Of a DNA stretch of 64,000 nt, positions 1 to 23,868 are shown piece by piece; positions within the stretch are counted from its first letter, which is position 1; the number at the start of each line of letters is the position of its first letter. Source of the DNA: Marasmius tenuissimus (lineage: Eukaryota; Basidiomycota; Agaricomycetes; Agaricales; Marasmiaceae); assembly GCA_029532415.1 (NCBI GenBank), contig JAQOTA010000071.1, positions 248,001 through 312,000 on the forward strand. Direction: 5' to 3'. Below the pieces are notes generated by a model that saw only the letters and a program-made list of their open reading frames with translations, made no database searches and had not been told where the DNA came from. Both the position numbers and the translations under genes were made by a program.

Positions 1-1905
1 TTTGATACACAATTTTACAGAACCGTAAGTGCTCTCGTATATCCCCATTGGTTATAGGTAGTGGTAATGTTTGAGATCTCTCACTGCCAGGTTGGAGCCA
101 AATTGTAAGCTTGCCCTTGATGTTTTCTTTCCGCGAAGCCATGTATGTCTGAGCTTGTCGGTCCCCTAGTCGTTACGGATACGCAGCTACCCGCGCATAT
201 ATTGCATATCAAGATGACAGATTTTTGAATCTTGCAATTGATCATTGGGGTTCCGGCAGGAGCTTGACGCTATCTGATGCAGACGTACGGTCGAGGAGCT
301 TGTCGGCCAAAAGCACAATCAACTCTACCACCAGCTTGGCTTGCTCAAAGCCTGGGAGTGAGTTGCCTTTCGTTGTAGAAATATATGCTAATACATCGAC
401 TCGTTAGGTGAATATACGCTTGCCGGCGGGACGTTCCATAGCGCAGTGAGTACGGTTGAAGTACCAAAGGGATGAACCTGTCCTATATTGAACTGAAGGA
501 TCTACGCAGGATCAAGATGATCTCCTTATAACAACTGGTTCAACGGCGTAAGAGTCTCAGCTCTTTTCACTCTCTCAGCTCAAGCTGACCTGACGGCTAG
601 AGACTACCTGACGTATGCTGTTCCTCGCTTTCGCTTGAATTGAGGACTTACTCTTCAAAGGCTCACGGTCTCACTCGCCAACCTCAATTCAATGGACATG
701 ACTTTGGCGAGCCAGATGGGCCAGTTTATGCGAAACACACTCTACAGGGGTTCTGGGGCTTTCTACAGTGCAATTCTTGTGGGCGATCCAGATTGCCCAA
801 ACCGCCGCGATGGTCGTACTACCGGCGCATCCGATGCCGCAGTCACCATGCAGTCATTATCACTTCTAACACTGGGTTCAAAGAATGATAATTTCACTGA
901 TATGTGAGTACTCCCGCTGCATACTGACGTCGCAACTGATTTCCTTGTCAAAAGCCTCAAAGACATAGCTCGTCGCTCAACTGGGAACACTTGGAACTCC
1001 GCTGACGGTGTACTTGGTAATTTGAGCTACTCGTTCCGCGGTCCGGCGGCTGACCCGTCACCTCAGACCTTCAGAAGGTTTCGAACGTGACTGGCAGTAA
1101 AGACGCTACCCAGATGTCACATCGGCTCCTCCGGAGCTATTTCGATATATCCCTCGGCGACGGGGCCTCAGATCTGAGGGCGTATCTTCGCGCGTACCTA
1201 GGAATCCAGGCGAGTGCATTCTCACTGGATGGCATTCTCTATTCCTTTGTTGATAAAAGACACGGCCATTAGTACGATGTACTCGTGAAGCAGGCTACCT
1301 TCGCCAGTGGCGTCCTGAATCTGTACGGGTCCGAATCAAGACCTCAAGGACAACTCAATCCGGAAGCACAGATACTAGCCATCACTACACTGCTGGGTGG
1401 TGTGATTTCGAGCGAAGATACCACACCAAACGATACCGAGGATCGCCGCCGAATTCCCACTGGAGCAATAGTGGGCGGGGTAGTAGGGGGCATTCTGGGA
1501 TCGGTCTTCATCGTTACAGGAAGCTATTGTTGTCTTCGCCGAAGACGCCAGGTGCAGCTCTCCCTACCCACCGTGGAGCCGTACCAAGCGACGAGCCCCT
1601 CAATGACGCCCCCGCCTTTATCGACTGTTCCAGCTTCCCGGTCAGGTAAATATGAAAAGAGGACGCCTTTGGCGAGCCCTAGCATTATAGAAAGCACGGA
1701 ATCCGTGCCTTCGATACTCATACCGCCTATTCCCGCCCTAGTAGAGCCCCAGTCCACTCGTATGCGCGAGGCGACCACGGCAGAACTCGTGACATTATTG
1801 AATCGGAGATTGGGGCTTGAACCGCGGGAAGTTAACAATGAGCAGTGGGATGGGAGCCAGAGCCCGCCAGATTACAGTAGTCAAGCGGGAGGCGACAGAA
1901 TGTGA
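1..1905 (+). CDS. GH76-like membrane-anchored protein, copy 1 (5' truncated by window)
   Basis: First of three paralogous genes resembling the agaricomycete glycoside hydrolase family 76 (alpha-1,6-mannanase-like) proteins that carry a C-terminal membrane anchor. The signal-peptide exon lies outside the window; sequence begins in an intron before a 4-nt exon at 21-24. Recognisable pieces include EYTLAGGTF near 412-435, the block around 690-900 shared with the other copies, and the last exon (1273-1905). That exon has a glycine-rich transmembrane segment (AIVGGVVGGILG, about 1465-1500), an arginine-rich stop-transfer sequence and a Pro/Ser cytosolic tail ending near PPDY. An apparent in-frame TAG at 1270-1272 is best explained as the 3' end of a GC-AG intron (1210-1272). 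I could not place the catalytic Asp pair, so enzymatic activity is uncertain. Confidence 0.68.
1210..1272 (+). other. Probable GC-AG intron, GH76 copy 1
   Basis: The donor is CAG|GCGAGT and the acceptor CCATTAG|TAC. Removal joins ...IQ to YDVLVKQATF, which agrees with the remembered family pattern VQYNAV/VQYDAL. The intron is 63 nt, a multiple of three, and its last codon in the reading frame is TAG. Confidence 0.65.
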
Positions 1906-4850: not shown

Positions 4851-7152
4851 ATGCGCATCTGGTACCTCCTTCAAACACAACTCATTCTCGTTGTGTGGGG
4901 CCTGGAACTGAGCGTGCCTTCATCTTGGAATGTACGTCTTCCGGTCAATATCATACTGGAACTCCGTTGAGATTACATCATCCAGAAATCAGCTGTGAAC
5001 GTCTCTCGCGAGGAACGAATTAATCGTACAGCGGAAGCGATCGACGCGTTCATCGCGTCCGACGCTCTGTTCACTTCAGTCCAGCCCCCTAGCAACCTTT
5101 CCGAGGGATATTGGCCCCACGGAGCATTTTTGGCATTGACCGCAGACTTTGATATCATCACAAACCAGACCAGATACAAGAGGATTGCTCAGGAGCGTTT
5201 TCTCCCTGCTTTACAGCGAACGACCCCGGATACCAAGTGAGTATATCCAACACTCCTCCTGGTCCCGGTGTAAAACTCTGATATACGCTTCTATAGAATT
5301 GTGAGTGCTCTCCTGCACCCCATTTGGTCATAGGGAGTAGTGATCTTCGAAATTGTCCACTAGACGATCAGGAACAAATTGTAAGCTTGATCTCAGCCTT
5401 TTGTTTTCACGAAACCATGCATATCTCAACATGCCGACTCCTTAGTCGCTACGGATACGCAGCTACCCGTGCATACCTTGCGTATAAAGACGAGGGTTTT
5501 TTGAACATTGCAAAAGACTATTGGGCCTCCAACAAGAGCCTGACAATATCTGAAGAAGACGTACAGTCAAGGAGCTCTCCAGCTAAAAGCGAAATCAACT
5601 CCACCATGAGTATGGCTTGCTCAAAATCTGGCAGTGAGTCGCCTGACGTCGTTGAGGAATATATCGACGAATCAACTCATTAGGTGAATACACGCTTGCC
5701 GGCGGGACGTTCCACAGCACAGTGAGTACTGTTGAAGTACCACAGCGATGATTGAATTGAAGGATCCATGCAGAATCAAAACGACCTCCGTATAACGACT
5801 GGTTCAACGGCGTAAGATTCTCAGTTGTTTCATTCTCTCAACTTGGACTGACTTAATGGCTAGAGACTACCTGACGTATGCTGTCCCTTACTTTCGCTCG
5901 AGTTGAAGACTCACTTCTCAAAGGCTCACGGTCTCACTTGCCACTATATCATCATCCAACTTCGATTCAATGTACATGTCCTTGGCGAGCCAGATGGGCC
6001 AGTTTATGCGAAACACACTCTACAGAGAATCTGGGATTTTCTACAGTGGTGTTGATGTGGGGGATTCAGATTGCCCAACTCGCCTCGGCGAAATGGGTAC
6101 TCGGGTATCCTATGCTGCATCCACTATGCAGTCATTATCACTTCTAGCATTGAGCTCAAAAAATGATAATTTTACCGATATGTGAGTGCCCTCACCACAT
6201 ACTGATCGCGTAGCTAATGTGTTTCAAGCCTCGCGGATGCAGCTCGTCGCACAACTGGGAGCATTTGGAACTCCAATAACGGTGTACTTGGTAATTTGAG
6301 CTACTCATCCTATAGTTCAGTGGTTGACGGGACATCTCAGACACTCAGAAGGTTGCAGATGTGACTGATAGAGGCGAAACTTCCCATTACTCACAGGAAC
6401 TGCTTCGGAGCTATCATGACTTGGTAAACGCCGATGGTGCCTCGGATCTGAAGGCGTACCTTCGCGCATACCTAGCGGTTCAGGCAAGCACACTTTCCTC
6501 GGGTATCATTCGTCCTCGTTCTGACCAAGAACGCGGCAAATAGTATGATGCACTAGTGAAGCAGGCCACCTTTGCTAGTGGGGTCCTAAATTTCTACGGA
6601 CCTGGATTAAGACCTGAAGGTCAGCTCGATCCGGAAGCACAGACACTGGCCATTACTATACTGCTGGGCGGAGTGATATCCAACGATAATGTCACGACTC
6701 CCAATGGCCCCCGAGCAACCGATGCCTCCCTACCTGATATTGGTGGTCCCGGTCAAGCCCCGATCGGAGCCATAGTCGGTGGTGTAGTTGGGGGCGTTTT
6801 GGGACTCGCTTTGGCTATAGCAGCAAGCCATTTCTATATCCGCCGGCGACGCCAGTTGCAGTTCCCACCTACCATGGACCCATACCCAACAATGACCTCC
6901 CCGATATTACCCCCGCCGATTTCAACCGTTTCGCCTTTTCAGTCCGAAAGGTCAATAAAACGAGCGCCTCCAAGCAGCGATGGCGTTGCAAAAAGCACGG
7001 TTTTGACGCCAAGCCCACCCACCACAGAGTCCCAGTCCAGTCGTATGCACGAGCCGACTACTGCAGAACTCGTAACAATATTGAACCAAAGGTTGAGGAA
7101 TGAGCAATGGGACGCGAACGAGAGTCTTCCAGACTATCGCACAGACGCATAG
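4851..7152 (+). CDS. GH76-like membrane-anchored protein, copy 2
   Basis: Type I membrane protein of the GH76-like family, probably acting at the cell wall or plasma membrane. Exon 1 (4851-4931) encodes a signal peptide starting MRIWYLLQTQLILVVWG. Exon 2 starts at 4986 and encodes the N-terminal helix pair, with REERINRTAEAIDAF and ADFDIITNQTRYK. It is followed by a 4-nt exon (5297-5300), a 17-nt exon (5364-5380), the YGYAATRAYLAY exon from about 5447, and later exons carrying EYTLAGGTF, MYMSLASQMGQFMRNTLY and KAYLRAYLAVQ. The last exon (6544-7152) has the AIVGGVVGGVLG membrane segment and a cytosolic tail ending LPDYRTDA. A TAG at 6541-6543 falls in a predicted GC-AG intron (6484-6543), so the gene may well be functional. 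Catalytic residues could not be confirmed. Confidence 0.75.
6484..6543 (+). other. Probable GC-AG intron, GH76 copy 2
   Basis: The donor is CAG|GCAAGC, a branch-point-like CTGAC lies near 6521, and the acceptor is AAATAG|TATGAT. The intron is 60 nt and phase 0 on both sides. Splicing gives AVQ-YDALVKQATF; unspliced RNA would stop at TAG. Confidence 0.7.
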
Positions 7153-8214
7153 CGGCGACCTATGGTGCTCAGCGTGATCTTGATTATGGGTGACTACATT
7201 GAGAGGCTGTGTTATGATATACTAGTCGAGACGTTCAGGGTTGCGTAGTATGATGGACCTGTCTAAGCAGAAAAAAGTGATGTGCGTTTCGTGCAATTCC
7301 ACCCAGTCTCACCGCTTTCATACGATATTAGAAAACTCAAAACTGCTCCGGATATGAACAGTCGTCGTACATTACTCCTAACGTGAATAGCATCCGCCGG
7401 CGACAGGTGGTTGGTGACTTCGGTGGGGAAGCGTTCATCGTACGGTGGACGTTTCATTCCTTTCATCATAGGCTACAGCTACTCAATGCAGGAAGGAAGG
7501 ATAACTTCGCCATACAAACCCAGTTCTTCAGCTCGAATATAAGCATTCGACTTATTTCAACCGATGAGTAATGGCAGTATACACACTCCTTTTATGCGCT
7601 ACAAGGTATCTACACCCTGGTTCAGCTATATCTGCTCGAAATTCGAATCCTGCACAGAACGTATCCCGAGACAAACTGACCGGCGTCCTTTGCCGGCACA
7701 AGACACCAAGGAGCTGCGCCTGGACCCAGTCGGGTTACTGGAATTGCACACGAGAGGCGTCGAATTCCGTACCTCCCTTCCCCCATTGTAAGGCGTGTTT
7801 GTTTGGAAACTCTGCTTGCTATCGTATACCAGACTTCTGATATGTTCCGCATGAAAGGGCCGGTTTGGGGAATTTGAGGGTCGAAAGGCGTAAGCATTCT
7901 CACAGCATGTAAGGTGGGACTTGGAAAGTAGGTCCGAGATCGTAAGGAGAAGACGGCGGCCATGGCCACTGTCAGAGATAGTCGTACCGATAGGGTTTAT
8001 TTTCCTGGATCCGGGCCGCCATGGAACCGTTGCAGTGACATTGAGCTTCAAAAAGGTGACGCAGTGATTGGACCACTCCTTTCGCCCGCCCATTTCCCAG
8101 AACAAGAGTGAGAAAATACTTCCGAGAGTACCAAAGCTGGCGTCGTACCTAGACACTAGGTGACCTAGTACCAATGAAGGAGGCCCCTCTGAGGAATGAT
8201 TAGTACGTGAAAGA
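7153..8214. other. Non-coding flank, paralogous to 22560-23178
   Basis: No convincing gene. The right half (about 7600-8214) is a diverged copy of about 22610-23178 in unit B; both share a stretch that in the minus frame reads SRYD..FG..GS..SLLFWE. Frames are not conserved throughout, so this is probably duplicated 3' flank and HSBP1 upstream DNA rather than a gene. Confidence 0.6.
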
Positions 8215-8230
8215 CATCAGCAAAATACCT
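8213..8230 (+). repeat. Left TSD (GA) and left terminal inverted repeat
   Basis: GA followed by CATCAGCAAAATACCT. The 16 bases are the exact reverse complement of 18485-18500. The flank outside is homologous to 23110-23178. Confidence 0.92.
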
Positions 8231-8235
8231 GTTTC

Positions 8236-8522
8236 GTTAAAACCTACGCATAACGGATTCCAGTGATCACGAACGGCCAATACGATATCGGGGAATATTA
8301 AGAGTGTTGGATCCAGTTGATAGTCGCGCAATGCGTTTACACGAGTCTATGGGTTTGTTACAGTATTGGAATACTCTTATAATACCAGAGTAAGCGATTT
8401 AAAACCCTGCCAAAACACGTTAAAACCTCTGCAAGGGACTGTCGGGGCGGAGATTCACTGAATCCATTCAACCGAGCAAAAGGCGTTGCGGACAGTTTCT
8501 GGACGTTCCAAGGGGTTTTAAC
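8236..8522. repeat. Left subterminal GTTAAAAC repeats
   Basis: GTTAAAACC occurs at 8236-8244 and 8419-8427, and the inverted form GGTTTTAAC at 8514-8522. The same core occurs near the right end. Arrays of short subterminal motifs are the known transposase-binding arrangement in CACTA/EnSpm elements; that they do this here is inference. Confidence 0.5.
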
Positions 8523-8757
8523 CAGTTTCGCCCCTTTTGATGCGTTGTAGACTTCTTCAAATGTATTGGAGGGACGAACATATTGATTGGACGGATAGCC
8601 GTAGCAACGGCTTTCCAGTTTGCTCCAACTATTCTAGTATTACGGTTCCTGTCGTCTTCTTGGGGACTTCGCAATGAGTTCAGAGGTTATAGAGGATTCA
8701 CACCAGAAGTGCATGGAAAAACAAGATCTATATTTCTTTGTTAAACAACCGGTACAG

Positions 8758-11700
8758 CTATAATACGGCGTGCTCCATATCCTCGTTGTCTTCATCCATG
8801 TCGCCTTCAGCCTCATCTTCATCACTATGCTCGGGAGGCGGAGGCGACATCACCCAGTCAGACCCTGAATCATCCTCCTGCTCATCAGCTTCCGCCACAC
8901 CATCAACACTTCCCTCCTTCTCATCACCAGGCTCGTCCTCGCCATCGTCGGTCGAAGTGATCTCCTCGCCATCAATGTCGTAACAGGGTAGGGTCTGCAC
9001 ATCGAGTCCGGCGTCCTTCTCAAAGTACCGCAGGAATTCGTGGAATTGGGGATGTCCTACCCCGCCTCCACGAAATCTCATGAATCCGTCGCGGTCAGAG
9101 AAACTATGGAGGGAATGAGATGAATTTTAGCACGAAACCATCCGCCAAGGTACGTTACTTACGTTCCAACGTAATAAAATTTCCAGTCTTCTTCCTCGAG
9201 CTCCCTCTTGCCATTAGAATTCAGCGATAAGAGCTGACGCGCGAGGGATGTGATTGGCAGCCTATTCCCCGTGTCAGACGACCCATGGGCAAAAGCCGGG
9301 ATGATATGGGCACCCCGAACGACATCAGCTGGATCAAGAAAGCCGAAGGCGTTGGTATCTTCCGGAGGCGGGAAGTATATACGGTACAGACGCCTGGCAC
9401 GAAAGCCAGCTCTGTAGTTCCTGTCCACCTGGTACCAGCGTACCCATAAGAACTCCACGTGCTTGGTGATTGGCACCTTCTTGGTTGAGAGCGTGGGCTC
9501 GATACGAACGTGGGCATGAAAGCTGCCTATAACCTGAGCGTACTGGTAGGGGTGTTTGTCCTCGCTGCCAACTACCTCTGGCGATAGTGTATAAACATCG
9601 GGATGCAGACGAGTGTTGACAGAGTCTTGATCCCTCTGTCTGTCGTATGTGTTGAAGTTGAACCGTATGGTCTTGTGAGCATATATGGCATCATTCGTGA
9701 AGGTAAGCTGGGCACGTTCATTGTTCGTGTACTCTCTCTCGGGGTCGGTTCCCAGAAGTCGGTGAAGGAGGTGATCTTTCAGCTTCGGGATGAAATCCTA
9801 TGATATCTTAGTTAAGCAGAATGAATGGCATGCCCGACGACTTACGCAAGTCGCTATATCCTCTTCCTCCCCTTCGTTAGTCCAATTAAGATCAGAAAGC
9901 AGAACACGGTGTTCTGTACCGGCTGCGGTGTGATAGCGCACATTTGGATCCGTCTTTGGCAATGATTCCTGCCCGCCAGCAAGGAACCTTTTCTTTCTGT
10001 ACTTTTTCCCCTGCTGTTTCTGCGGGACCGTTGTTGAAATACGAGCCTTCATAGTCGATAACAGGCGTTTGCGGCCCTCGTGTCGTACAATCTGGAAGCT
10101 ATGATTCTGCTTGTTTGTTCGCCGATAGAAACTCTTGACTTGCTGATGCTGACATTCACTCTGCGGGATTTCAGTCAGTCCAAATTCCCGGATTCCCAAA
10201 CATAGATGAAACATCATACGTTGCGAGTTGTGTACGAGTCAGTCGTACCATACTCCTTGATCGCACTAGGGTAATCTCCGAGGAAATGAAGCTTGGCTGT
10301 GGAAAGACTGAACTTCTTCACTTGGGCGCCGGACTTCTTTGTCGTGGTAGGCTTGCCGGTACCAGAGCTTCGCTTTGCTGTTGTGACTGCACGTCGTTCA
10401 CGAGTTTCGACCTCTCGCGGGGTTTCTTTGGTATTGAAGTTTTCGGAATCCTTCGCGAGTTTCCTCAAGCTCTTCCCGAGCTGGACTGTCGCGTCCTCAA
10501 AAGAGGCCACTGTAGAGTCAGTATGGAGCCGTAGCTTGGAGTAGGCGTGCCATGTGGCGAGGTTGAAGAGGAGATCCTGGACCATCTGGTCAATTCTCTG
10601 ATCATTGAAGAGGCCTTCAAAACAGGGCATTGCACACTGGAAGGGCAGCGCATGAGTGAAAGACCACAAATAAGAAAAGAGTACTGTACCTGGAGTATGT
10701 CTTCGAAATCTCTAGCCGCCAGTTTCTTCATTTGCGAGACATTGTTATGAAATCGCCGGATGGTGTTCCGGCCAAACGTTGGAACCCGGCGGAAGCTGAA
10801 GGCAATCAGTAAGAGGGAACATATAAATATATCATGAAACTTACCGTTCATCCATGACTTCAACGGAATCCTCTTTCTTTCTGTTTTTGCCAGGCTTCTG
10901 CGTGTAGAGCATTCGGATTAGGTGCGTTAGCACAGCCTTCCAAACTCCCAGCTCAAACTCGTGAAGGAGATCAACTACGAGCAGAAGGTAAAGGTCGAAT
11001 CCAAAAGGCAGGAGCTTGGTTGAGAATACATTCTAATTTCCCTTCAGTTTCGGGAACTCGCATGAGTCTCAACATACACATACCCGTGTTGGGACCAGGG
11101 AGCGATCGTCCAAGAGATGCCTGACTGGATCAGATTCGACACCTCGCCCATCTGTGAATATATGCCACCGAGCATTTTCTACCGCTTGCTGGCGGTCCTC
11201 ATCGTCGATGCGCTTCAGTCGGATTCGGCGTTTCATATCCAGTTTGGTGCCCATTGCGTTCACCTGCCTCTTCTCAATGAGACATCGAACACAGAGGCAA
11301 GTACCTAGGTACTTTACACACACTACAGCAACCCTAATAGGCACATAAATCACCAAACAAAGAACGAGAGATCCAGACTCACTTCTCAGGGTAGTCGGCA
11401 GAATAAGAGAAGAACTCGGGGAGAAACCTTCTCTTAACTTTATCCGCACAGTTGTAGATCACGGATTTTTCATAGGCATCAAGAAATTCGTCGTCCATAA
11501 TCAAGCTCCAAATGGCCTGCATGACCTCTCGTTTGAGATGCTTAATGACTTCGTCTGAAGGGGGAGATTTGTAGGCTTCACGGTACACGTCCCGCACCGT
11601 GTCTGGGATCTAATGTGCACTGTAAGCGTTAGAACATGGAGTGACCGTCGGGAATCATACCTGGGGAATATAAGCTAGATGGTGTGCAGTGAAGAATTTT

Positions 11701-13228
11701 GGATTGCCTCGTTCGTACTTGGTCCGATTTCCGATGTACATGTAGATGGGCCAGGAGGATGCCGTACCAAAGTTCGCAAGATGGGTGGAATCTGACGCCA
11801 TCATCATCCAAATGATTACTGTCTCTAACCCGTCATCAATTCCCCGCAATTCCAAACGTTTCAGCTTTTCACGTTCAATTCGAAGAGCACGATTTGAAGT
11901 AAAAGCTTCGCCGTAGACTCTTTGAATCTGGTGAGGCTGGGACGCGCTGGGACGGAGCCAAAACTCCTTATAAGGTCGAAGATGCAACTTGAGAAACTCT
12001 TCATCTTTGACTAGAGAGTGTATGATGCTCAATGGTTTGCGATACCAAACATTGTCAATAATAAGTTGTGGGGCATCTGACTCGGACGTGTGCTTGTGCC
12101 CCACACAAGGCATCGGGATGGAGAGTGTGCCACGATGCCATACAGAGTCGTCGAAAGCAAAAGGAGGAGTCTTTGAGGGCTTGGGCGTGGGATTAGTCTT
12201 CTGAGGTGTGAAAAGACTGGGTTTTATCGGCTTATCAGAGGGTTTGACTGGTGCTGATGGAAGGGGAGCGTCAAGCTTCTGTAACTCACGCCTCGCGCTG
12301 AAGTTCCTGAAGTGGCTAGGGTCGAAATCGGGTTGTAGTATAACATTATTGACCAGATTGCTCAGTGAACCCTCGGTGACGGACGTAGTTTCATACGCCC
12401 AATCAAAAAGCCTGAACGTCGACACGTTTGGCAGGGGCGCGTAGGGTGGAGGTACCAGCGGTTTCTTTTGATGACCGGTCTCAGAGTTCTGGCTCAAGGC
12501 CATGGACTTTTGGATAAGAATGGAGGCGTCGGGGGAATTCTCCGTTGTGAAATTGGGAGAGGAAACAAACTGCGAGTCCTCCGGGTACCTGGAAGGTTCC
12601 TTTGAGTCATAGACTCGGTAGATACCGAGCTCATTGGGCTGTGTCTTGTAATAGACGCGATTGATAGTTGGTAAAGGCAGTGGATCGGCAGGAGTTGGGA
12701 TTTGAGGAGCCGAATCATGTTGAGATTCAGGGAGTGGAGATGGGTTTTGCGGAGAAGGTATACGTCGCGGTGTAGCGAGGGCCGACAGAGGTAATGCCGA
12801 GCTTCCTCGACCCTTGCGAATTACTGCAGAGACGCTAGATATCTCGAAGTCTTCAAAACGAGGGGGAAGACGTGTTGTACGCGACCTGCCACTACGTCGT
12901 AGGGTCGAATTATCATCCGAAATCGTTGAAGGTCCTGCTCCGGGCGTTTGAAGATCCCAATCATTCGAGATCCCTGCTGCCAGTGTCTGGAAGGTCTCAT
13001 CTGGACGACCTTTCCCGTTTGACTGTCGACCTAATTTGCGCTTTTTGGCGGAACGGGCAAGGGCCATGACTTCCTCATCCTGCGAGGCTGTACCTTTTCG
13101 CTTGCTGCACTTGCCAAGGTGGATCCTGAAGCCCTGCGCATTGGGACATTCCTTGCCGCATGATTCACAACGCACTGTGAATGAAACTTTGAATTTCAAT
13201 ACCAAGAATTCATTCAATGGGACATACT
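8758..13228 (-). CDS. Plavaka-like transposase
   Basis: Large multi-exon transposase, roughly 1,300 residues after splicing by eye. The main exon (about 13174-11663) opens with a C2H2-type zinc finger (CESCGKECPNAQGFRIHLGKC pattern), then a disordered basic region. It continues into the conserved transposase segment with the YGEAFTS, LASDSTHLANFG and WPIYMYIGN-like motifs typical of Plavaka proteins. Later exons continue through VRDVYREAYKS, CPRCLIEKRQV-type residues near 11290, HELGVWKAV, the KLHFLGDYPSAIKEYGTTDSY segment (about 10290-10225) and an acidic C-terminal tail ending at 8758. No frame break was seen in the exons checked. The start codon appears split by an intron: A at 13228, then GTATGT...CAG, then TG at 13174. 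It is divergent from the cargo genes. Coherent splicing suggests it could be active. Confidence 0.88.
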
Positions 13229-13454
13229 CGTTGGTCTGAATGTTTTTTCAATACCGGGGCAACTAAATGAGCCGTGATAGAGGGCTGGGTGGCCTGTAAA
13301 TTGTGGACCAACCGTCAGTAAAAATGTACGCGTTCGAGGTAGTCAATTTATTTAGGAACTTTGGTTCTTATGTGCTTAGATTGTGTTTTGAACTCAATCT
13401 TCTCTATTTGTACAGATATTTTATATACTCAAGAACGTTCACTTACCCAGTTGA

Positions 13455-13725
13455 AGGACTCTCGACCACTATAGTGGTAGTTGAGAGTCAAAGGAGGCGG
13501 GATGTGTCATCATTCCAACCACCACGCGATCAACATGACACTCGGCAAAGATTTTGGCGCAAGCGCCCTACAGAGCGCCTGAGAGCTCAGAGCACTCAAA
13601 GCTGGCGCTTTGTAGGGCGCTTGCGCCAAAATCTTTGCCGAGGCGTCCTGAGAACATGTTCAGGTCCGCACGTGGGGACCTCATGCCCACCTTGACTCAC
13701 AACCACCACCACTGTGGTTGAGTCC
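13455..13725. repeat. Palindrome cluster in the divergent promoter of the transposon
   Basis: The centre is an inverted repeat at 13541-13642. Its 39-bp arms (13541-13579 and 13604-13642) differ at one position, with a 24-bp spacer. On each side lie imperfect palindromes: GACTCTC...GAGAGTC around CCACTATAGTGG at about 13458-13490, and GACTCAC...TTGAGTC around CCACTGTGG at about 13693-13723. A CCTGAG..CATG..TCAGG palindrome lies near 13648. The cluster lies midway between the transposase start (13228) and the KOW gene start (13960). Confidence 0.85.
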
Positions 13726-13959
13726 TCCCTTAAGGTATGTTTTCGACTTTTGTGTACATATAATTAGTAGGATTGTTAGTAGACAATGATAAAGTCTAAA
13801 GTGAACCAGAGGGTGTAACACCCATTTCTGTCAGCATCAAATCCCTCTTAAAATGACCGAACTTGACCAAAAGTACCGTGCTGATGGTTTACTCTTTTCG
13901 TATAGGCTAGGGGTCACCCATAATTCATCAAGCCGATTAGGTTCCGCACCAATCTTGAT

Positions 13960-15497
13960 ATGGTACGTGTTGCTAATTTTGCCCTGCCGACTCATTACTC
14001 ATTCTATCTTGCAATCCTAGTCGTCGAAATGCGAAGCTACTGGAGAAGAGGAAGGGAATTGGAGGATATCATCAGTTCGCGATTCTTATAACTTGGGTTT
14101 GGAACAGAACGTACGTTGTCTTTTTCATTGGTGTTCGTTATTGTAATTTACATCCCTCACAGAATCGCAAACGGAATCGAGACTCCCCTGGCTCTGAACA
14201 CAACAATATCAAAAGAATACAGCTTGAAAGTGACGCAAACAACGAGCAGGACGATCGAGCACCATCAATAGAGTGCATGCAATTCATTGCCGACATCATC
14301 ATAGCGGATTTGGCCAACAACCCAGCTGCCGTTGATAAACCTGAACGAGAGGAGGAATCGTTACAGAACGTCAATGACGAGCAGGAGGGACTCGAACAGA
14401 ATGCCCCGCATGAATTTATGCGCCTCGATTTTGGGCCAGAAGAGACTGGCACACGACCGTCGTACACAGGTCGTGAGCCTTGGGCCGGGGCCTGCGTGCT
14501 GGTTATTGGCTCTTATTTCAAAGGATCTACGGGCACTCTTCGACATGTTCAGATTGATTGGTCGCTACTGGATACCATTATTGACATGACGCCTGGGGTA
14601 GACCTCAGCCAGGTCAAGTCTGGCCTTTTACTTGATGTCGAACTTGATATTGTACGAGCAACTCATGGGGCCTCGGCTATAGAGAGGATCGACTATAGAG
14701 ATGTGGTTGAACTCAGAACCTTGCAAAGACTCAATGTTTGGCGGCCATTGCACCATTATCACGAGGTGTGGTATCTCCGCCCCGATCTTCCTGACCCAAT
14801 CATTCGCAATGGACCTTTCCCAATTGCCCGCCTCTCAATGTTCGACTCACTTCAAATTGATGTTTCGCGCACTCCTCGCCCTCGCACCCCTACACCACCT
14901 CCAAGATCTCCACGTTTTGTGCAGAATCTCTCTGATCCGTGGAATCCTTTGGCAATTCTGCCTCCGACGGAAGCCGACCATTGGATCTTACACCCGAAAT
15001 TGACTGGTTTGGAAATCGAGGTCGAAATCATTGGTGGGCCATATGACTCAGGAGGGTACCCCGTCCACGTTACGCCGGTTCTGAAGAGTCAAGGAATTGT
15101 TGTCGAGTATACCACGGGACGAGGAAGTACAATGGGCACCCATTCAATCGCCCACAAGTTCATTGCTCGGTCAAGCGAAGACATCAAAGCCGGCACTGAA
15201 ACTGCCCTGATGGCAGTGATAGCTGGCGAACATGCGGGGAAACTGGTCCGTCGAATTCGGAAATTTTATCTGGGTGAACGGAACCGGGAGAACCTGTGGA
15301 TTGTTGGGGGTGTCATCTTACCAGGGAAAGAAGAAAAACTTACCGATGAGCGGCTCGATATCTCCCCACAAGATCTTGTCAGGGTAAGGGAATCACCCGA
15401 GCAACGCGCTAAGGCCAAAAAGTACATGTCCGACGCCAGGGACAATGCCGCAACAGAGTGGGGTCGTAGACCAGAGGTTCGACCGTATCCCTCTTGA
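13960..15497 (+). CDS. KOW-motif-like cargo protein of the transposon
   Basis: Predicted exons are 13960-13962 (ATG only, then GTACGT), 14021-14110 and 14163-15497, giving about 475 residues. Splicing is supported by phase and by the absence of stops. After an acidic N-terminus, the protein has a glycine-rich beta motif (VLVIGSYFKGSTGTLRHVQ, about 14490-14550) resembling a KOW loop, and a second (VIAGEHAGKLVRRIRKFYLG, about 15217-15275). Both recall SPT5-type KOW repeats that bind RNA polymerase or nucleic acid. A Pro/Arg/Thr-rich linker (about 14875-14915) separates them. It lies inside the transposon inverted repeats, 470 bp upstream of the DUF6698 gene and in the same direction. Function in transposition is unknown; the KOW assignment is by motif shape only. 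Confidence 0.65.
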
Positions 15498-15967
15498 TAT
15501 CTCTCATTGTGTTTACGCGTTTTTCGGTGTAGCCACATGTTCCATGTATCATATCCTCGGGAATCCAACTGTTATTTCTCACTCACTGGATGGGTCTCTG
15601 CTCAAACCAGTTTTTAAACTCCGCCGTCCAACCCTACAACATACATCGTCCCTTGGGACTTACCTCCGTTTCCTCAATACCCCTTGTCCTGCTACGTATG
15701 ACGGACAAGCCCCACACATCGAATGATTCATCAGATGAGCCTGAATCCGTCTACAGGTTCCGCGTTTCAGGCCAAATCCCTGGTGTCTCCGTTCCCCAGT
15801 CTCCCTTGTCCTCCCTATATGTGACAGGCAAGCCCCACCTAGCTCAACAAGCCCTGACCTGGCTTTCAGACTCCGCAATCGAGATTCGAGACCTATAAGA
15901 GAGCGGTGAGCAGTCTCTTCGCTTCATTCCCAACACCCTCATCTCTTCAACATTCATATTTTCAACC

Positions 15968-17807
15968 ATGCCCCCTCAACGTCTTGTGCGCCCTAGCGCT
16001 CGTGTTGGCACCTTCTACACTCCCCCCTCTCGTTATGATAATCGTCGATTCTACAGCTCGCCGGAGCCTGAACCCGAAGCCCCAAAACTGACGAAAGCCG
16101 AAGTTCAGGCCAGAGAACAATTCGAGAAGTGGTCCAATGCTGTATTGGGCGGCACCACGCCGTGAGTTTGTTGTTCCTTCGTCTTGAGTATTTACTGACC
16201 GCTCCTCAGGGCGTGTGGTCCGCGTGCTGCTTACTACAACATAGGATCGCGCTGGATGCGGTTTGTTGACCCGTGGACCGACAAGATCGAGTTGGTGTTG
16301 CGATTCGGTTTCGCCGAGGACCTTCGACCTATACCATCCAACAACAATGACGCTGACGTCGACATGGAGGAAGATGACGAAGAAACTGAGGAAGAGAAAC
16401 AGCGTCGACTTGAGATCCTTGATCTCTTCACGCTGCCGGACGATATGTATGCACATACATCGGTTTCTGCGTTCATCACTGACTTTGTACGTTACCACAG
16501 GAAGGAAACTGACAAAGACCGTTACCGACAATCCTTTCTTCTCTTCAAGACCGGTCACCCCACTCAGTACAATCAGCTTATTGCTTGCTTCGAGTTCGAG
16601 GCAGCGGAGACCATCAAGACCTTGTACTCTTCCGTAAGTCTATGTCTTCCATCCCCTTCCCCCTACTTACCACTTCGTAGATCGAGAGAGGTTTCAAGGA
16701 CGCAAGGCGCAACGACACATGCCACATGAAGCAGAATATCCTCAGTTACATTCCAAACAACCCACAGCAGAAGGCGGTTAAGGACGACGCCCTCGTTCCT
16801 TTTATCGACTCTAGTGTCAAGAGCAACCGCGGGCTTGCTCACGATATGATCATCCCCTTGCTCTGTCCCATCGAGCGCATCAAGGAGGTTGTCCACAAGC
16901 CGGTCGACGACCCTGCTCGGGCTCAGTAGGTACGTTTCTTCTCCTTTGCAAAATACACTGACTTCTCCTCTTAGATTACTCGATGACGCTAAGGCCAAAA
17001 AGATTCAGCTTACCCCCACTCAGTTCCCTGGGTTTCTGTATGATTACTCCAGGATTAACATGGACAGGGCAAAAGAAGGAAGAGCCGCTGTCTTTCGTGG
17101 GTACCTCATTCCGCGGGTAAGCTCTTTCTTCCTATCCTTGAGCCTGTTCACACCCCATTTTTCCCCCAGGCTTCTCGTGCTTTACTTACATCGCCCAGTT
17201 CGGCGCTCGGAAAAAAGGGTTCAACGCGCGCTGGAAATGCAAAGAAAGCGGGAGTTACTGGCATGACCATACGCTTTCTGGCATATGTAGTGACTCAGGT
17301 GAAGTTCCCTGTTTCTGTCAAGCCTTGAGGATGCTAATGAATTTGTAGATTTGGCTTTCACTATCGGACGGCGAGACTTGGGGTGAAACTGTTGGCTCAT
17401 TCAATCTCAAGACATTCTATTACACTATGGTCGCCGCTCTCGAGGGCATGAATCATCTACGCAGGGATCTTGCATTTGCCTACCTCAATGAGTAAGCCAC
17501 TTCCTTTAAGCCTCCACCATTTCTCATTGTTTTGGATAGGGAAATATGGGGGGAAAAGCAGACGTCCGAGGCCGTCCCTGCAGACAGCGAGGTTGGGAAG
17601 GCAATTTCGATGTGGTCATTGGAAGATGATGAGGAAGTCGAGGCCGAGGAAGCGGCACAACAGGAACGTTCAGCTAGCGAGAATGTTCCTGCTAGCAGCG
17701 AAGGTCCTGCGGGTGGCAACATTGTTGCGCCCGGTAGTGCTTCCACCGACGGTAATTCCTCTACTCGTGATAATGCCCCCGTTGGTGCCGGTAGTATTAT
17801 CACCTAG
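15968..17807 (+). CDS. DUF6698 family protein (transposon cargo)
   Basis: Multi-exon gene resembling the agaricomycete DUF6698 family, which has no known function. Predicted exons begin at 15968-16161, 16210-16633 and 16681 to about 16923, with further short exons to 17807. Family-like blocks in order are FEKWSNAVLG, YYNIGSRWMRFVDPWTDK (about 16233-16285), an Asp/Glu-rich loop, the residues around 16866 (LLCPIERIKEV), FPGFLYDYSRIN (about 17023-17060), VFRGYLIPR, and FNLKTFYYTMVAALEG (about 17405-17450). An acidic and Ala/Ser-rich tail follows. It lies within the transposon ends, downstream of the KOW-like gene. All splice joins keep frame, so it appears intact. The family match is from memory. 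Confidence 0.72.
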
Positions 17808-18226
17808 TAGAATGTTATGTTTGCTTGGTTGCTTGTTACCGTACGGTTTACTTTGAATCAATTAATAGTTTTCTGCAAAACTTGATGTCCCCTTACTTGA
17901 GATGTGAAATCAGCGGAAACCGTGAGCTCTTCAGCAACCTGTCAAAGTAGCTGAAATATGTATGTACTGGTTTAACTTGCTGCTATTCGTTGAGACCATC
18001 ACTCCTTGCTAATATACCTAAACTCCTGCGGAATGTACACAAATCAATGAAATTCGTACTACCTATGAGACTCAACACAAGCTCTCCTACTTGACGAAAC
18101 TCGTCTCCTTCTGGACAACCCGCGCTAACCTCCTCTCCCCGTTACTCTTTCAATAATGCCCTATCACCCCCACTATCCGTCACTTCCGCTACAATTCACT
18201 GCTACAGCCTGCTCCACAGAAAACCT

Positions 18227-18254
18227 GTTAAAACTTTCCGAAACCCGTTAAAAT
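18227..18254 (+). repeat. Right subterminal GTTAAAA repeats
   Basis: GTTAAAACT at 18227-18235 and GTTAAAAT at 18247-18254, about 250 bp inside the right end. They match the motif found near the left end. Confidence 0.45.
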
Positions 18255-18484
18255 CCTGTCAACTCGGAGTAACTACGACTCTCTTAGACAAGCCCTGAGA
18301 CTCATTGAAGTGTACGTAAATCCATTGATTTTCCGTGCAATCGCACTCACGGATTCTCTGTGTCTTCACGAATTGGGGCGCTATTTTAATACTGTTATAA
18401 ACGCCGACCCCTCTCAAAACCTGGTACAATGAGTTCCCAGGATAGTATCGAATAGCGCAGATACTAACGACATTTTATCGGTTG

Positions 18485-18502
18485 AGGTATTTTGCTGATG
18501 GA
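18485..18502 (-). repeat. Right terminal inverted repeat and TSD (GA)
   Basis: AGGTATTTTGCTGATG followed by GA. The 16 bases complement 8215-8230 exactly. The flanking GAAATGTGAATGACCCCT matches 23177 onward in unit B. Confidence 0.92.
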
Positions 18503-20247: not shown

Positions 20248-22532
20248 ATGCTCATCGTGTTCAACTGGTACCTCCTGACGCAACTCATCCACACTGTGTG
20301 GGGTGAGGAGCTGAGCATCCCTTCATTTTGGGAGGTATGTCTTCCAATCAGTATGTGCCGGAGCTGCGTTCAATTAACATCGACTAGAAATCCACTGTGA
20401 AAGCCTCTCGCGAAGAACGAATCAACCGTACGGCGGAAGCGATCGACGCGTTCATCGCGTCTGACGCCCTTTTCACCTCAACCCAGCCCCCTAGCAATCT
20501 TTCCGACAAATACTGGCCCCATGGAACATTTCTGGCTTTGATCGCAGATTTTGATATCATCACGAATCAGACCAGGTACAAGCGGATTGCTCAGGAACGT
20601 TTTCTTCCTGCTTTACGGCGAACAACGCCGAATCACAAGTGAGTAAAATCTACCACTTCTGACCTGGCTTCAGTGCAAGACTTTACACTACACTGCAGAA
20701 TCGTGAGTGCTCTCGTCTACCCCTGCTATAGGCAACAGTGCCCTTCAATATTTCACACTACTTAGATCGGGAACAAATTGTGGGTTCGCTCTCATCCTTT
20801 GCTTTTCACGAAAGAGTCATAATGACGCACGTCTGAACATGCCGACTCTTTGGCCCCAGTCGCTACGGGTACGCAGCTACCCGCGCATACCTTGCGTATC
20901 AAGACGAGGGATTTTTGGATATTGCAAAGGACTTTTGGGCTTCCAACAGGAGCTTGACGCTCTCTGATGCGGACGTACAGTCGAGGAGCTCTTCAGCCAA
21001 AAGCACAATCAACTCTACCATTAGTTTAAGTTGCTCAAAGCCCGGGGGTGAGTCGCCCTTCGTTGTGAGGAACATATGCTGACGTATCTTGAACTCATCA
21101 GTTGAATATACGTTGGCAGGCGGGACGTTCCATAGCACAGTAAGTACGATCAGTACAGGGTGGTTTACCGGAGGATGCTCCAGATTGAACCGAGTGATCT
21201 ACCGGTAGGATGAAAACGACCTCCTCATAACCACTGGCTCAACGGCGTAAGAATTTCGGTTGTTAACACGCTCTCGGCTTTGTCTGACTTGTCGACAGCG
21301 ACTACCTGACGTATGGTGTCCCTTGCTTCTACTTGGATTGATGGACCCTGAATACATAGTCGCTCTACAAAGGCTCACCGTCTCACTCGGCACTATGCCA
21401 TCCAACCTCGATCCAGCCTACATGACCTTGGCGAAACAGATGGGCCAATTCATTCAAAACACGCTCTATAAAGAGTCTGGAGTTTTCTACGCCGGAATCA
21501 GAGCAGGGAGTCCAGACTGCCCACCTCGTCGGAATGGCAGCGATTCTGTCGTATCTGACACCGCGGTCACCATGAAATCATTGTCGCTTTTAGCCTTGGG
21601 CTCAAAGAATAATAATCTTACTGATGTGTGAGTATTCTCGCCTCATACCAATCTCGTAGCTGAGTTTTTTGAAGCCTTAGAGACATAGTCCGCTACGCAA
21701 CTGGGAGTGCTTGGAACTCCAATAACGGCGTCCTTGGTAACTCGAGCTACTCATTCCGCAGTTCGGTGGCTGACACGTCGCGTCAGACACTCAGAAGGTT
21801 CTAGCGGTGACTGTAAGCGACACTTTCCATCACTCACAACGACTGCTTCAAAGCCATTTTGACTTGGCACGCGGTGATGGACCCTCAGATCTGAAGGCAT
21901 ATCTTCGCGCATACCTAACGGTTCAGGCAAGCGCATTTCCCTCGGGTACCATTCGTCCTCATGCTGACCAAGAACAGTATGATGCACTCGTGAAGCAGGC
22001 CACCTTTGGTAGTGGCGTCCCGAATTTCTACGGACTTGGAAGATCTGAAGCTCAGTTCAATCCGGAAGCACAGACACTGGCCATTACTACACTGCTGGGC
22101 GGAGTGATTTCGAGCGATGATGTTCCCAACGACTCCAGAACATCCGATGACACCACGCCTGGCAGTGGTAGTCGCGGTCGAGTTCCGATCGGGGCAATAG
22201 TCGGTGGCGTGATTGGGGGCATTTTGGGTCTCGCTTTGGTTGTAGCAGGGATCTACTTCCATCTTCGCCGGCAGCACCAGTTGCAGGCCCCGCCAATCAT
22301 GGAACCATACCTAATTATGACCTCCACCAAGCCACCCCTGCCGACGTCAACCGTTCCGCCTTTCCATTCTGAGCATACGGTTTCAACGTCAATCTCACCC
22401 ACCTCAGAGTCCCAGTTCAGTCGTATGCACGAGCCGAATACAGCAGCACTCGTAATAAGGTTGAACCAAAGGATGAGGGACGAGCAATGGGACGAAAACG
22501 AGAGTCTTCCGGAGTATCGCACAATTGCGTAG
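20248..22532 (+). CDS. GH76-like membrane-anchored protein, copy 3
   Basis: Most complete of the three paralogues. Exon 1 (20248-20334) encodes a signal peptide beginning MLIVFNWYLLTQLIHTVWG; an upstream ATG at 20194 would bury it and is less likely. Exon 2 (from 20388) carries REERINRTAEAIDAF, WPHGTFLALIADFD and TNQTRYKRIAQ. A 4-nt exon (20699-20702) and a 14-nt exon (20766-20779) follow, then YGYAATRAYLAYQDEGF, EYTLAGGTF and YMTLAKQMGQFIQNTLY. Further exons have SVVSDTAVTMKSLSLLALG and DLKAYLRAYLTVQ. The last exon has the transmembrane segment AIVGGVIGGILGLALVV (about 22195-22250), basic residues, and a tail ending LPEYRTIA. The product is predicted at the plasma membrane with its domain outside. 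The homologous GC-AG intron (21927-21977) has no stop here, so retaining it adds 17 residues in frame. Confidence 0.78.
20699..20702 (+). other. 4-nt microexon (GH76 copy 3)
   Basis: AATC lies between CTGCAG and GTGAGT. Equivalent microexons are AACC at 21-24 and AATT at 5297-5300. All three have strong splice sites on both sides and are followed by a 14- or 17-nt exon. Confidence 0.6.
21927..21977 (+). other. Probable GC-AG intron, GH76 copy 3 (stop-free)
   Basis: The donor is CAG|GCAAGC and the acceptor GAACAG|TATGAT; the intron is 51 nt, phase 0. It is 9 nt shorter than the intron of copy 2, and the TAG present in copies 1 and 2 is missing. Confidence 0.65.
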
Positions 22533-23170
22533 TGGCAGCCGGTGATATCCAGTGTCATCATTATTATGGACCATGTCAAGGGACTTTATCACTGCAACAA
22601 ACCCGTTTCTACACTGAGGTCGAAAGTGGCGTACATCTCATGCAGGTCTCCCAAGCCTCTTTGCTATCGAACCCGAAAACGTTCCTAGCATGAACCATCG
22701 TCGACGCCCTGTGTATTGTCCCACAGAGCCCGACTCTCAAGAGGGTCCGCATGAAAATGCCGGTTTTGAGGGTCGAAAGGCATATGCGTGGTTTTTCTAG
22801 AACGGCACGTGAGGGGGAACTAGAAAGCAGATCTAAGATTGTAAGGAGAACACACCTATCACACCGACGGCGGCCACTATCAGAGATAGCAAAAGAAGAG
22901 AATGAATACCGATAGGATGAACACTGTGTCACTGAATGTGCTTGGGACGGACGCGAACGGGCCGCCATGGGACCGGTGACGTTCAGCGCAAACTTCGGAG
23001 GGTTCAATCCAACTGCAAGAGCGAGCCTAGACACTTCTTTTGCTCTCCCACTTTCCCAGAACAAGAGTGAGAGATTGCTCCCGAAAGCACCGAAGTTGGG
23101 GTCGTACCTAGACACCAGGTAAACTAGTGAGTACTAGTGAAGGAGGGCCCTTCTGAGGAATGATTAGTAC

Positions 23171-23185
23171 GTGAAAGAAATGTGA
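23171..23185. other. Empty target site of the Plavaka element
   Basis: GTGAAAGAAATGTGA reads straight through the position where unit A holds the transposon. GA at 23177-23178 is single here and duplicated on both sides of the element in unit A. Confidence 0.9.
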
Positions 23186-23868
23186 GTGACCCCTGAGCCC
23201 TCGCGCTACTTACCTTGGTTACTTGGACACGCTGACGGGTAGAACCCCCAATCACGGGCTCAATAGAATCAGCGAGCTTCCGTTTGACGTTTGATAAGAT
23301 TCAGACCTTTCAACGGTGGACACGCGACGGCGTGGTCCCGGAGTTCCCAGTACACACATGTACAACGCTCCCGTGGGCGTCTGATGGAGGCTTGAACAGC
23401 GAAGCGAAGGTATAGCCAGCCTCCAGTACGGCTACAGGTCAAGCTCGATGACAGAGGGCATGAATGCCTGAATGGGTTACCCTGTAAAGATCGAAGTATC
23501 GACGGATGGGCGTCGGAATGCCAGCACGAATCAGATCCTTTTGAAAGCCTCCCCCGGTTCCTTGAAGAGTGCGGTTGAGTGATCATTATTATGACCCTTT
23601 ATGAAGGTGAGCAGATTCGAAGGGCCCCAGTATAGTGCATCCAACAGGAAACATAGACACGACCAATAGCGAGGTGCGACTTTGAGGGAGGAAGGCAAGA
23701 ACGGATCCGAGGGCCGAGGTTTTCGATCTAAACCGTTTTTGGTGTGTCTTTTTTTCACACGCACAGACCAGGTGGTCCTGCGACGAACTTTCCTTTCAAG
23801 GAGTCTCGAACGTTGGTCGAGCCGCGTACAACCACCACTGGACTGTTCACCTCGACACCGTCAAGAGA

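Follow-up and report, generated by a model that had tools for sequence, protein, structure and literature searches.

CACTA/EnSpm transposons encode TNPA and TNPD, and TNPA binds subterminal repeats together with the transposase. Bacterial elements carry NusG paralogues (RfaH/ActX) that keep element genes expressed, and plants have SPT5L/KTF1. Plavaka transposases are related to EnSpm transposases, and the PlavakaB elements of Agaricomycotina are characterized by CATCA..TGATG termini, target-site duplications of 2 or 3 bp and a Plavaka transposase that has C(2)C and H(3-4)H motifs with its catalytic residues and forms a tree clade of its own (PMC12730594). The 64,000-nucleotide stretch of Marasmius tenuissimus analysed here (assembly GCA_029532415.1, contig JAQOTA010000071.1, positions 248,001 to 312,000), hereafter the window, contains a 10,286-bp element that shares the termini, the duplication type and the transposase with PlavakaB as described there. 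The accessory gene in that description is TET/JBP, whereas the window element carries a gene of a KOW family and a gene of the DUF6698 family (Table 1). We consider it likely that the window element is an autonomous-looking insertion of a PlavakaB-type DNA transposon, and that its normal gene set in this genome consists of the transposase, an Spt5-like C-terminal half and DUF6698.

The original prediction held that the whole element had moved as one unit, and its boundaries bear this out: the 16-bp ends (CATCAGCAAAATACCT) are exact, GA is duplicated on both sides and an element-free counterpart with a single GA lies in the same window. The element thus has CATCA..TGATG termini and a duplication of the PlavakaB size, and the only other CATCAGCAAAATACCT match in the window has three mismatches. 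Genome-wide, the 16-mer (up to one mismatch) was found 90 times, against one match for a reversed control pattern, and these matches form 39 inward-facing end pairs with a spacing within 25 kb. The flanking dinucleotides are identical in 26 of the 28 end pairs that were read at both flanks and are of 13 kinds; because they vary, the element end is fixed at CATCAG. The two exceptions are L029, where TG and AC do not match, and C10_5.0, where the flanks instead share the three bases CTG. The empty site had been described as preserved. An element-free junction does exist and matches the joined element flanks nearly base for base around the junction, but over longer flanks the identity falls to 83% on the left and 75% on the right, and the site is a diverged paralogue within a local duplication and not an allele. 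Three diverged copies of an apparent gene for a membrane-anchored protein (window 99-1424, 5375-7189 and 20360-22569) belong to the local duplication from which this site comes.

The transposase matches PF18759 at residues 375-697 (E=1.7e-26), which supports its Plavaka identity. Its splice model is open, with GT-AG introns and zero internal stops, and a CVRC stretch is visible in the translation of the window. We propose that the start ATG is created by splicing 13228 to 13174. In the gene models, the proposed start codons of both divergent genes, the transposase and KOW genes, lie beside an intron or are split by one.

Are the KOW and DUF6698 genes regular components of this transposon? The 71-Mb M. 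tenuissimus assembly was covered by six-frame searches, whose counts are lower bounds. They gave 62 DUF6698, 74 KOW and 126 Plavaka exon matches, and two window transposase exons as queries gave 70 and 43 matches. Merged, these make 42 DUF6698, 60 KOW and 82 Plavaka loci; neighbouring exon matches were omitted from the merging, as they merge anyway. Among the resulting clusters, 35 hold all three genes, five DUF6698 and Plavaka, two KOW and Plavaka, and one DUF6698 and KOW, and the single-gene clusters comprise one DUF6698, 21 KOW and 39 Plavaka. In 35 of 35 three-gene clusters, a transposase in reverse orientation is followed by KOW and then by DUF6698, or the whole arrangement is mirrored. 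Within 14 kb of the 45 loci of the window's transposase type, DUF6698 is present at 40, KOW at 37 and both at 35, whereas each gene is present at none of the 36 other Plavaka loci. Even transposases that are only ~40% identical to that of the window are accompanied by both genes in unchanged order. Furthermore, 39 of the 42 DUF6698 loci (40 by clustering) lie within 13 kb of Plavaka, against 1.3 expected from uniform random positions, a control that is weak because transposons cluster; a better one is given by the 36 other Plavaka loci. As had been predicted, the KOW and DUF6698 genes are thus regular passengers of this Plavaka type and no isolated capture, and DUF6698 is linked to Plavaka in this genome (40 of 42 loci).

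Both cargo genes, which had been described as spliced and apparently intact, are indeed open and have GT-AG introns; the first KOW exon consists of the ATG only in our model. The family names given to them were upheld by Pfam for DUF6698 but not directly for KOW. PF20414 was found in two exons of the window DUF6698 gene (E 2.8e-10 and 3.3e-10; 40.7 and 40.4 bits against a cut-off of 23.7), and P0017, a 496-aa protein that is 96% identical to the window DUF6698 protein, matches it at 2.5e-40 (138.8 bits). The 496 residues of the window protein correspond to a 514-aa model minus 18 residues, which fall in the intron 16447-16500. The window KOW protein, in contrast, has zero Pfam matches at E up to 10, Spt5 NGN and KOW included, and a PDB sequence search with it gave nothing up to E=1. 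For C-half relatives at other loci, the KOW5_SPT5 match scores 17-19 bits (E 0.0008-0.003), short of the 27 bits required. A profile of 20 KOW-family members, however, reaches P0024 of Rhodocollybia butyracea (1,080 aa) with E=1.3e-58, and P0024 contains Spt5-NGN and KOW5_SPT5 above the cut-off and has matches among SPT5 chains of solved structure at 1e-12. In M. tenuissimus P0022, the N-half and the C-half are united in one 943-aa prediction. Judged from these homologues, on which the KOW/Spt5 label rests, the window KOW gene represents the C-half of an Spt5-like protein; a genome search with the Spt5-like N-half gave zero matches inside the window element. Structure models built from 17 sequences for KOW and five for DUF6698 both had a mean predicted local distance difference test score of 36 and were unusable, since fold matches would be meaningless at that level.

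The window KOW protein is 96% identical to the predicted protein P0001, which skips ~15 residues, so that an alternative annotation may put an extra intron in the third KOW exon. In another M. tenuissimus gene set, predicted proteins that are 96% identical to the window KOW and DUF6698 proteins bear the consecutive locus tags AAF712_016189 and AAF712_016190, each on a 12,015-bp contig. Among predicted proteins of Marasmius sp. AFHP31, P0020 and P0021 fuse a KOW tail with DUF6698 sequence, and P0006 continues into the N-terminal part of a DUF6698 protein. Among IMG/VR viral contigs, 44 pattern matches for DUF6698 were obtained and zero were confirmed.

Selection was estimated from the ratio of nonsynonymous to synonymous substitution rates (dN/dS; NG86, single exons, eight to ten copies). 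Between subfamilies, dN/dS is 0.10-0.23 for KOW (34 of 36 pairs with finite dS), 0.14-0.18 (3 of 19) and 0.12-0.25 (15 of 19) for two DUF6698 exons, and 0.09-0.15 (19 of 27) and 0.05-0.20 (14 of 27) for two transposase exons. The uncorrected ratios of nonsynonymous to synonymous differences (pN/pS) over all pairs are 0.26-0.43 for KOW and 0.29-0.49 for DUF6698. Among diverged copies, KOW and DUF6698 are thus both under purifying selection.

The original prediction named same-ended copies without both genes as evidence that would count against regular carriage. Such copies exist: 31 of the 39 end pairs have no listed match to the transposase, KOW or DUF6698. Since these copies lack a transposase match as well, the association of the two genes with the transposase is unrefuted. 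The other eight end pairs hold the transposase, KOW and DUF6698, the latter in seven by listed matches and in the eighth, C27_0.53, as exons found by tblastn. Of the gene-free pairs, 20 were inspected whole (L029-L048) and two in part (L027 and L028). Approximately their outermost 300-470 bp recur in long copies, L039 and L041 align almost at full length to one end of the C23 copy, and the largest stop-to-stop frame is 194 codons, except in L047, which has larger frames. By these features, the inspected gene-free copies look non-autonomous. The 11-kb gene-free copies on C37 and C63 were considered as a refutation and rejected, as 10-kb stretches of them, L027 and L028, align first with non-autonomous copies and beyond that with further stretches, which recur as insertions in other copies. 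A further end pair, at C7:5041700-5058985, spans 17 kb with no listed match for the three genes.

The Spt5-like gene also occurs in other settings. By proximity, the 60 C-half loci lie near Plavaka (37), KDZ (at least 10), GCR1_C (6) or none of these (7, two at contig starts), and the 28 N-half loci near KDZ (at least 10), GCR1_C (4), Plavaka (8) or none (6). As worded, the expectation that the KOW family as well as DUF6698 belongs to this transposon is thus not supported: the KOW family is without Plavaka specificity. Nine of the 23 C-half loci without Plavaka within 13 kb were inspected (L049-L057). At five of them (L049-L053, on C12, C33, C36, C19 and C59), the N-half, the C-half and CxC2 and KDZ transposase frames lie on one strand; PF00467 matches the N-half at L049 (E 1.7e-9) and L052 (E 1.1e-5), and L049-L051 are mutually ~99% identical across 6.5 kb. 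Three more, L054, L055 and L056 (C23:278000, C3:2094000 and C3:4312500), represent a repeated unit of the Spt5-like pair and a GCR1_C protein without a recognised transposase; L054 and L055 are 99.9% identical over 7.3 kb, and six of the 10 GCR1_C matches in the genome adjoin a KOW gene. The ninth, L057 (C7:5876500-5881500), has an open KOW gene (P0003) that is 61% identical to that of the window, with a KDZ match ~4 kb away and no Plavaka or DUF6698 match within 13 kb; it is possibly a remnant or a host-kept copy. At C10:5567574-5576671 (L043), a 2.3-kb non-autonomous Plavaka copy (5570864-5573187) lies between the N-half and the C-half of a KDZ unit and is probably a nested insertion.

A four-gene Plavaka version, with the N-half between the transposase and the C-half, was found at six loci. 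In a tree of 19 proteins, its C-half (L061) groups with two KDZ C-halves (100/99) apart from the window's type, so that the Plavaka label requires two changes on the tree. This placement suggests that the Spt5-like gene was exchanged between the unrelated Plavaka and KDZ lineages, on the thin evidence of one four-gene sequence in the tree. In two four-gene copies, L058 and L059 (C27:376549 and C7:5334342), homology stops on the DUF6698 side at a CACCAGAAAAAGATGC end that is unlike CATCAG. The CACCAGAAAAAGATGC 16-mer occurs at three genomic places, one per copy, a count that says little because the reversed control matched twice. An 801-base stretch was searched for the second end, without revealing an inverted CACCAGAAAAAGATGC copy.

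Several observations weigh against regular carriage of functional KOW and DUF6698 genes by this transposon. Two of the 42 DUF6698 loci (C2:125647 and C21:407997) lie more than 14 kb from any transposase of this type, and five of the 45 transposase loci have no DUF6698 match, although DUF6698 exons were found by tblastn at one of these (C27:535116). The association is known from Marasmius only, and the KOW family has the other contexts just described. Subfamilies are separated by large dS values (0.96-3.2 or infinite), which makes the low dN/dS ratios approximate. When close copies are compared, dN/dS amounts to 0.28-0.74 in KOW, 0.20-1.94 in the short DUF6698 exons and 0.38-0.96 in the transposase, a pattern that post-insertion decay of the copies would produce. 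Stops are present in the long transposase exon in seven of nine copies and in the KOW exon in four of 10, and most copies thus look decayed. These stops and the weak constraint among close copies can also be read in favour of an isolated capture, in which one element acquired a pair of host genes that was then passed on to later copies without being of any use; transposons often carry host fragments. However, transposases of ~40% identity share both genes in the same order, selection between subfamilies is purifying, and neither gene occurs at the 36 other Plavaka loci. We regard the capture as very improbable, since gene order and selection largely refute it.

The distribution of the Spt5-like gene raises a different alternative, namely that it is an anti-silencing or antitermination module travelling among unrelated transposon lineages and that DUF6698 is a distinct part of PlavakaB that performs a different task. 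The N-half and the C-half adjoin CxC2/KDZ transposases, with near-identity of three such loci, the pair lies between the transposase and DUF6698 in six Plavaka loci and beside GCR1_C in four, and the tree pairs the C-halves of the four-gene Plavaka and KDZ types. DUF6698, for its part, accompanies this transposase type at nearly all of its loci. Nevertheless, only one four-gene Plavaka and two KDZ sequences are in the tree, 10 of its 19 rows are without a context label, and the KDZ and GCR1_C units are known by gene proximity and not by mapped boundaries. We regard the travelling module as possible but not probable. In a wider form that we offer tentatively, PlavakaB and KDZ, as a minimum of two unrelated lineages of fungal DNA transposons, would share with a third type of repeat a split, exchangeable Spt5-derived elongation factor against silencing, with DUF6698 as a PlavakaB-specific transposase partner. 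The original suggestion of target choice, or of target tolerance, is an unlikely role for the KOW and DUF6698 proteins: tethering to transcribed chromatin would be conceivable for an Spt5-like protein, but 13 dinucleotide types in 26 copies reveal no strict site at that level.

The ends of the PlavakaB-type element contain short repeats. In the window element, GTTAAAAC occurs four times in the two 404-bp ends and not at all in the 9.4-kb middle (shuffle mean 0.04). The test covered 14 copies (eight of nine long and six of 20 short ones) with 200 shuffles each, and the count in the ends was reached by at most four of 200 shuffles in 13 of the 14 copies, figures to be read with the provisos that GTTAAAAC was chosen from the window element itself and that the ends of related copies are non-independent. 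L030 (30 of 200) is unremarkable, and the C11 and C23 copies also have internal GTTAAAAC. The clustering is compatible with a helper that binds DNA, and DUF6698 is a candidate for it. Short repeats near both ends are shared with CACTA/EnSpm elements, and the likeness of DUF6698 to TNPA is one of analogy alone. The window KOW gene shares Spt5-like ancestry with the Spt5/NusG family via P0024, but it is the C-terminal half only, lacks NGN and lies inside a DNA transposon. We put forward, as the favoured conjecture by analogy, a joint mechanism in which the Spt5-like protein would act at RNA polymerase II and maintain expression of the element genes despite silencing, and DUF6698 would be a helper that binds the subterminal repeats together with the transposase.

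TET/JBP genes are transposon-borne and common to unrelated superfamilies, according to PMC12730594. The KOW gene is likewise of a kind found in both Plavaka and KDZ-type elements, but it is Spt5-like and no dioxygenase. The main text of PMC12730594, so far as available, contains no KOW, SPT5 or 'unknown function', and 'DUF' once, in the reference list. KOW and DUF6698 are absent from the available passages of PMC12730594, PMC9674265, PMC8290104 and PMC7473861, and SPT5 from those of PMC12730594, PMC8290104 and PMC7473861; PMC9674265 was not searched for SPT5. DUF6698 is absent from the papers listed in a search for Plavaka or DUF6698, and supplements or Iyer et al. 2014 may contain an earlier mention. 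Literature searches returned no paper joining KDZ with KOW, or SPT5 with transposon and Agaricomycetes. A near-perfect palindrome inside the element was considered as a miniature inverted-repeat transposable element and rejected, the 20-base tip of its arm being unique in the genome at up to two mismatches.

Table 1. Features of the Plavaka element and its surroundings (window coordinates)
Feature	Position	Strand	Size or product	Details
Plavaka element	8215-18500		10,286 bp	16-bp inverted ends and GA duplication
Target-site duplication GA, left copy	8213-8214		2 bp	
Left terminal inverted repeat CATCAGCAAAATACCT	8215-8230	+	16 bp	exact match
Left subterminal region	8231-8634			three GTTAAAAC motifs, either strand
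Plavaka transposase gene	8758-13228	-	1,332 aa	nine coding exons; splice model
Transposase coding exons	13174-11661, 11609-11383, 11333-11084, 11032-10845, 10795-10690	-		
Transposase coding exons, continued	10636-10220, 10160-9846, 9797-9163, 9103-8758	-		
Near-perfect palindrome	13541-13642		39-nt arms, 97%	between the divergent transposase and KOW genes
KOW-family gene	13960-15497	+	475 aa	exons 13960-13962, 14021-14110, 14163-15497
DUF6698 gene	15968-17807	+	496 aa	eight exons, GT-AG introns, open
DUF6698 exons	15968-16161, 16210-16446, 16501-16633, 16681-16925	+		
DUF6698 exons, continued	16975-17116, 17170-17298, 17349-17491, 17540-17807	+		
Right subterminal region	18081-18484			one GTTAAAAC (two GTTAAAA)
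Right terminal inverted repeat CATCAGCAAAATACCT	18485-18500	-	16 bp	exact
Target-site duplication GA, right copy	18501-18502		2 bp	
Paralogous empty site	23032-23359	+		single GA at junction 23177-23178; blast and alignment

If the proposed assignment is true, the annotation of DUF6698 would shift from a gene of unknown function to a transposon protein, and some Spt5-like genes of mushrooms would be transposon cargo. The Spt5-like gene would then represent a second class of accessory genes, after TET/JBP, in unrelated transposon lineages. It would also offer a testable case of transposons that encode their own transcription elongation factor and would be a eukaryotic counterpart of the element-borne NusG paralogues.

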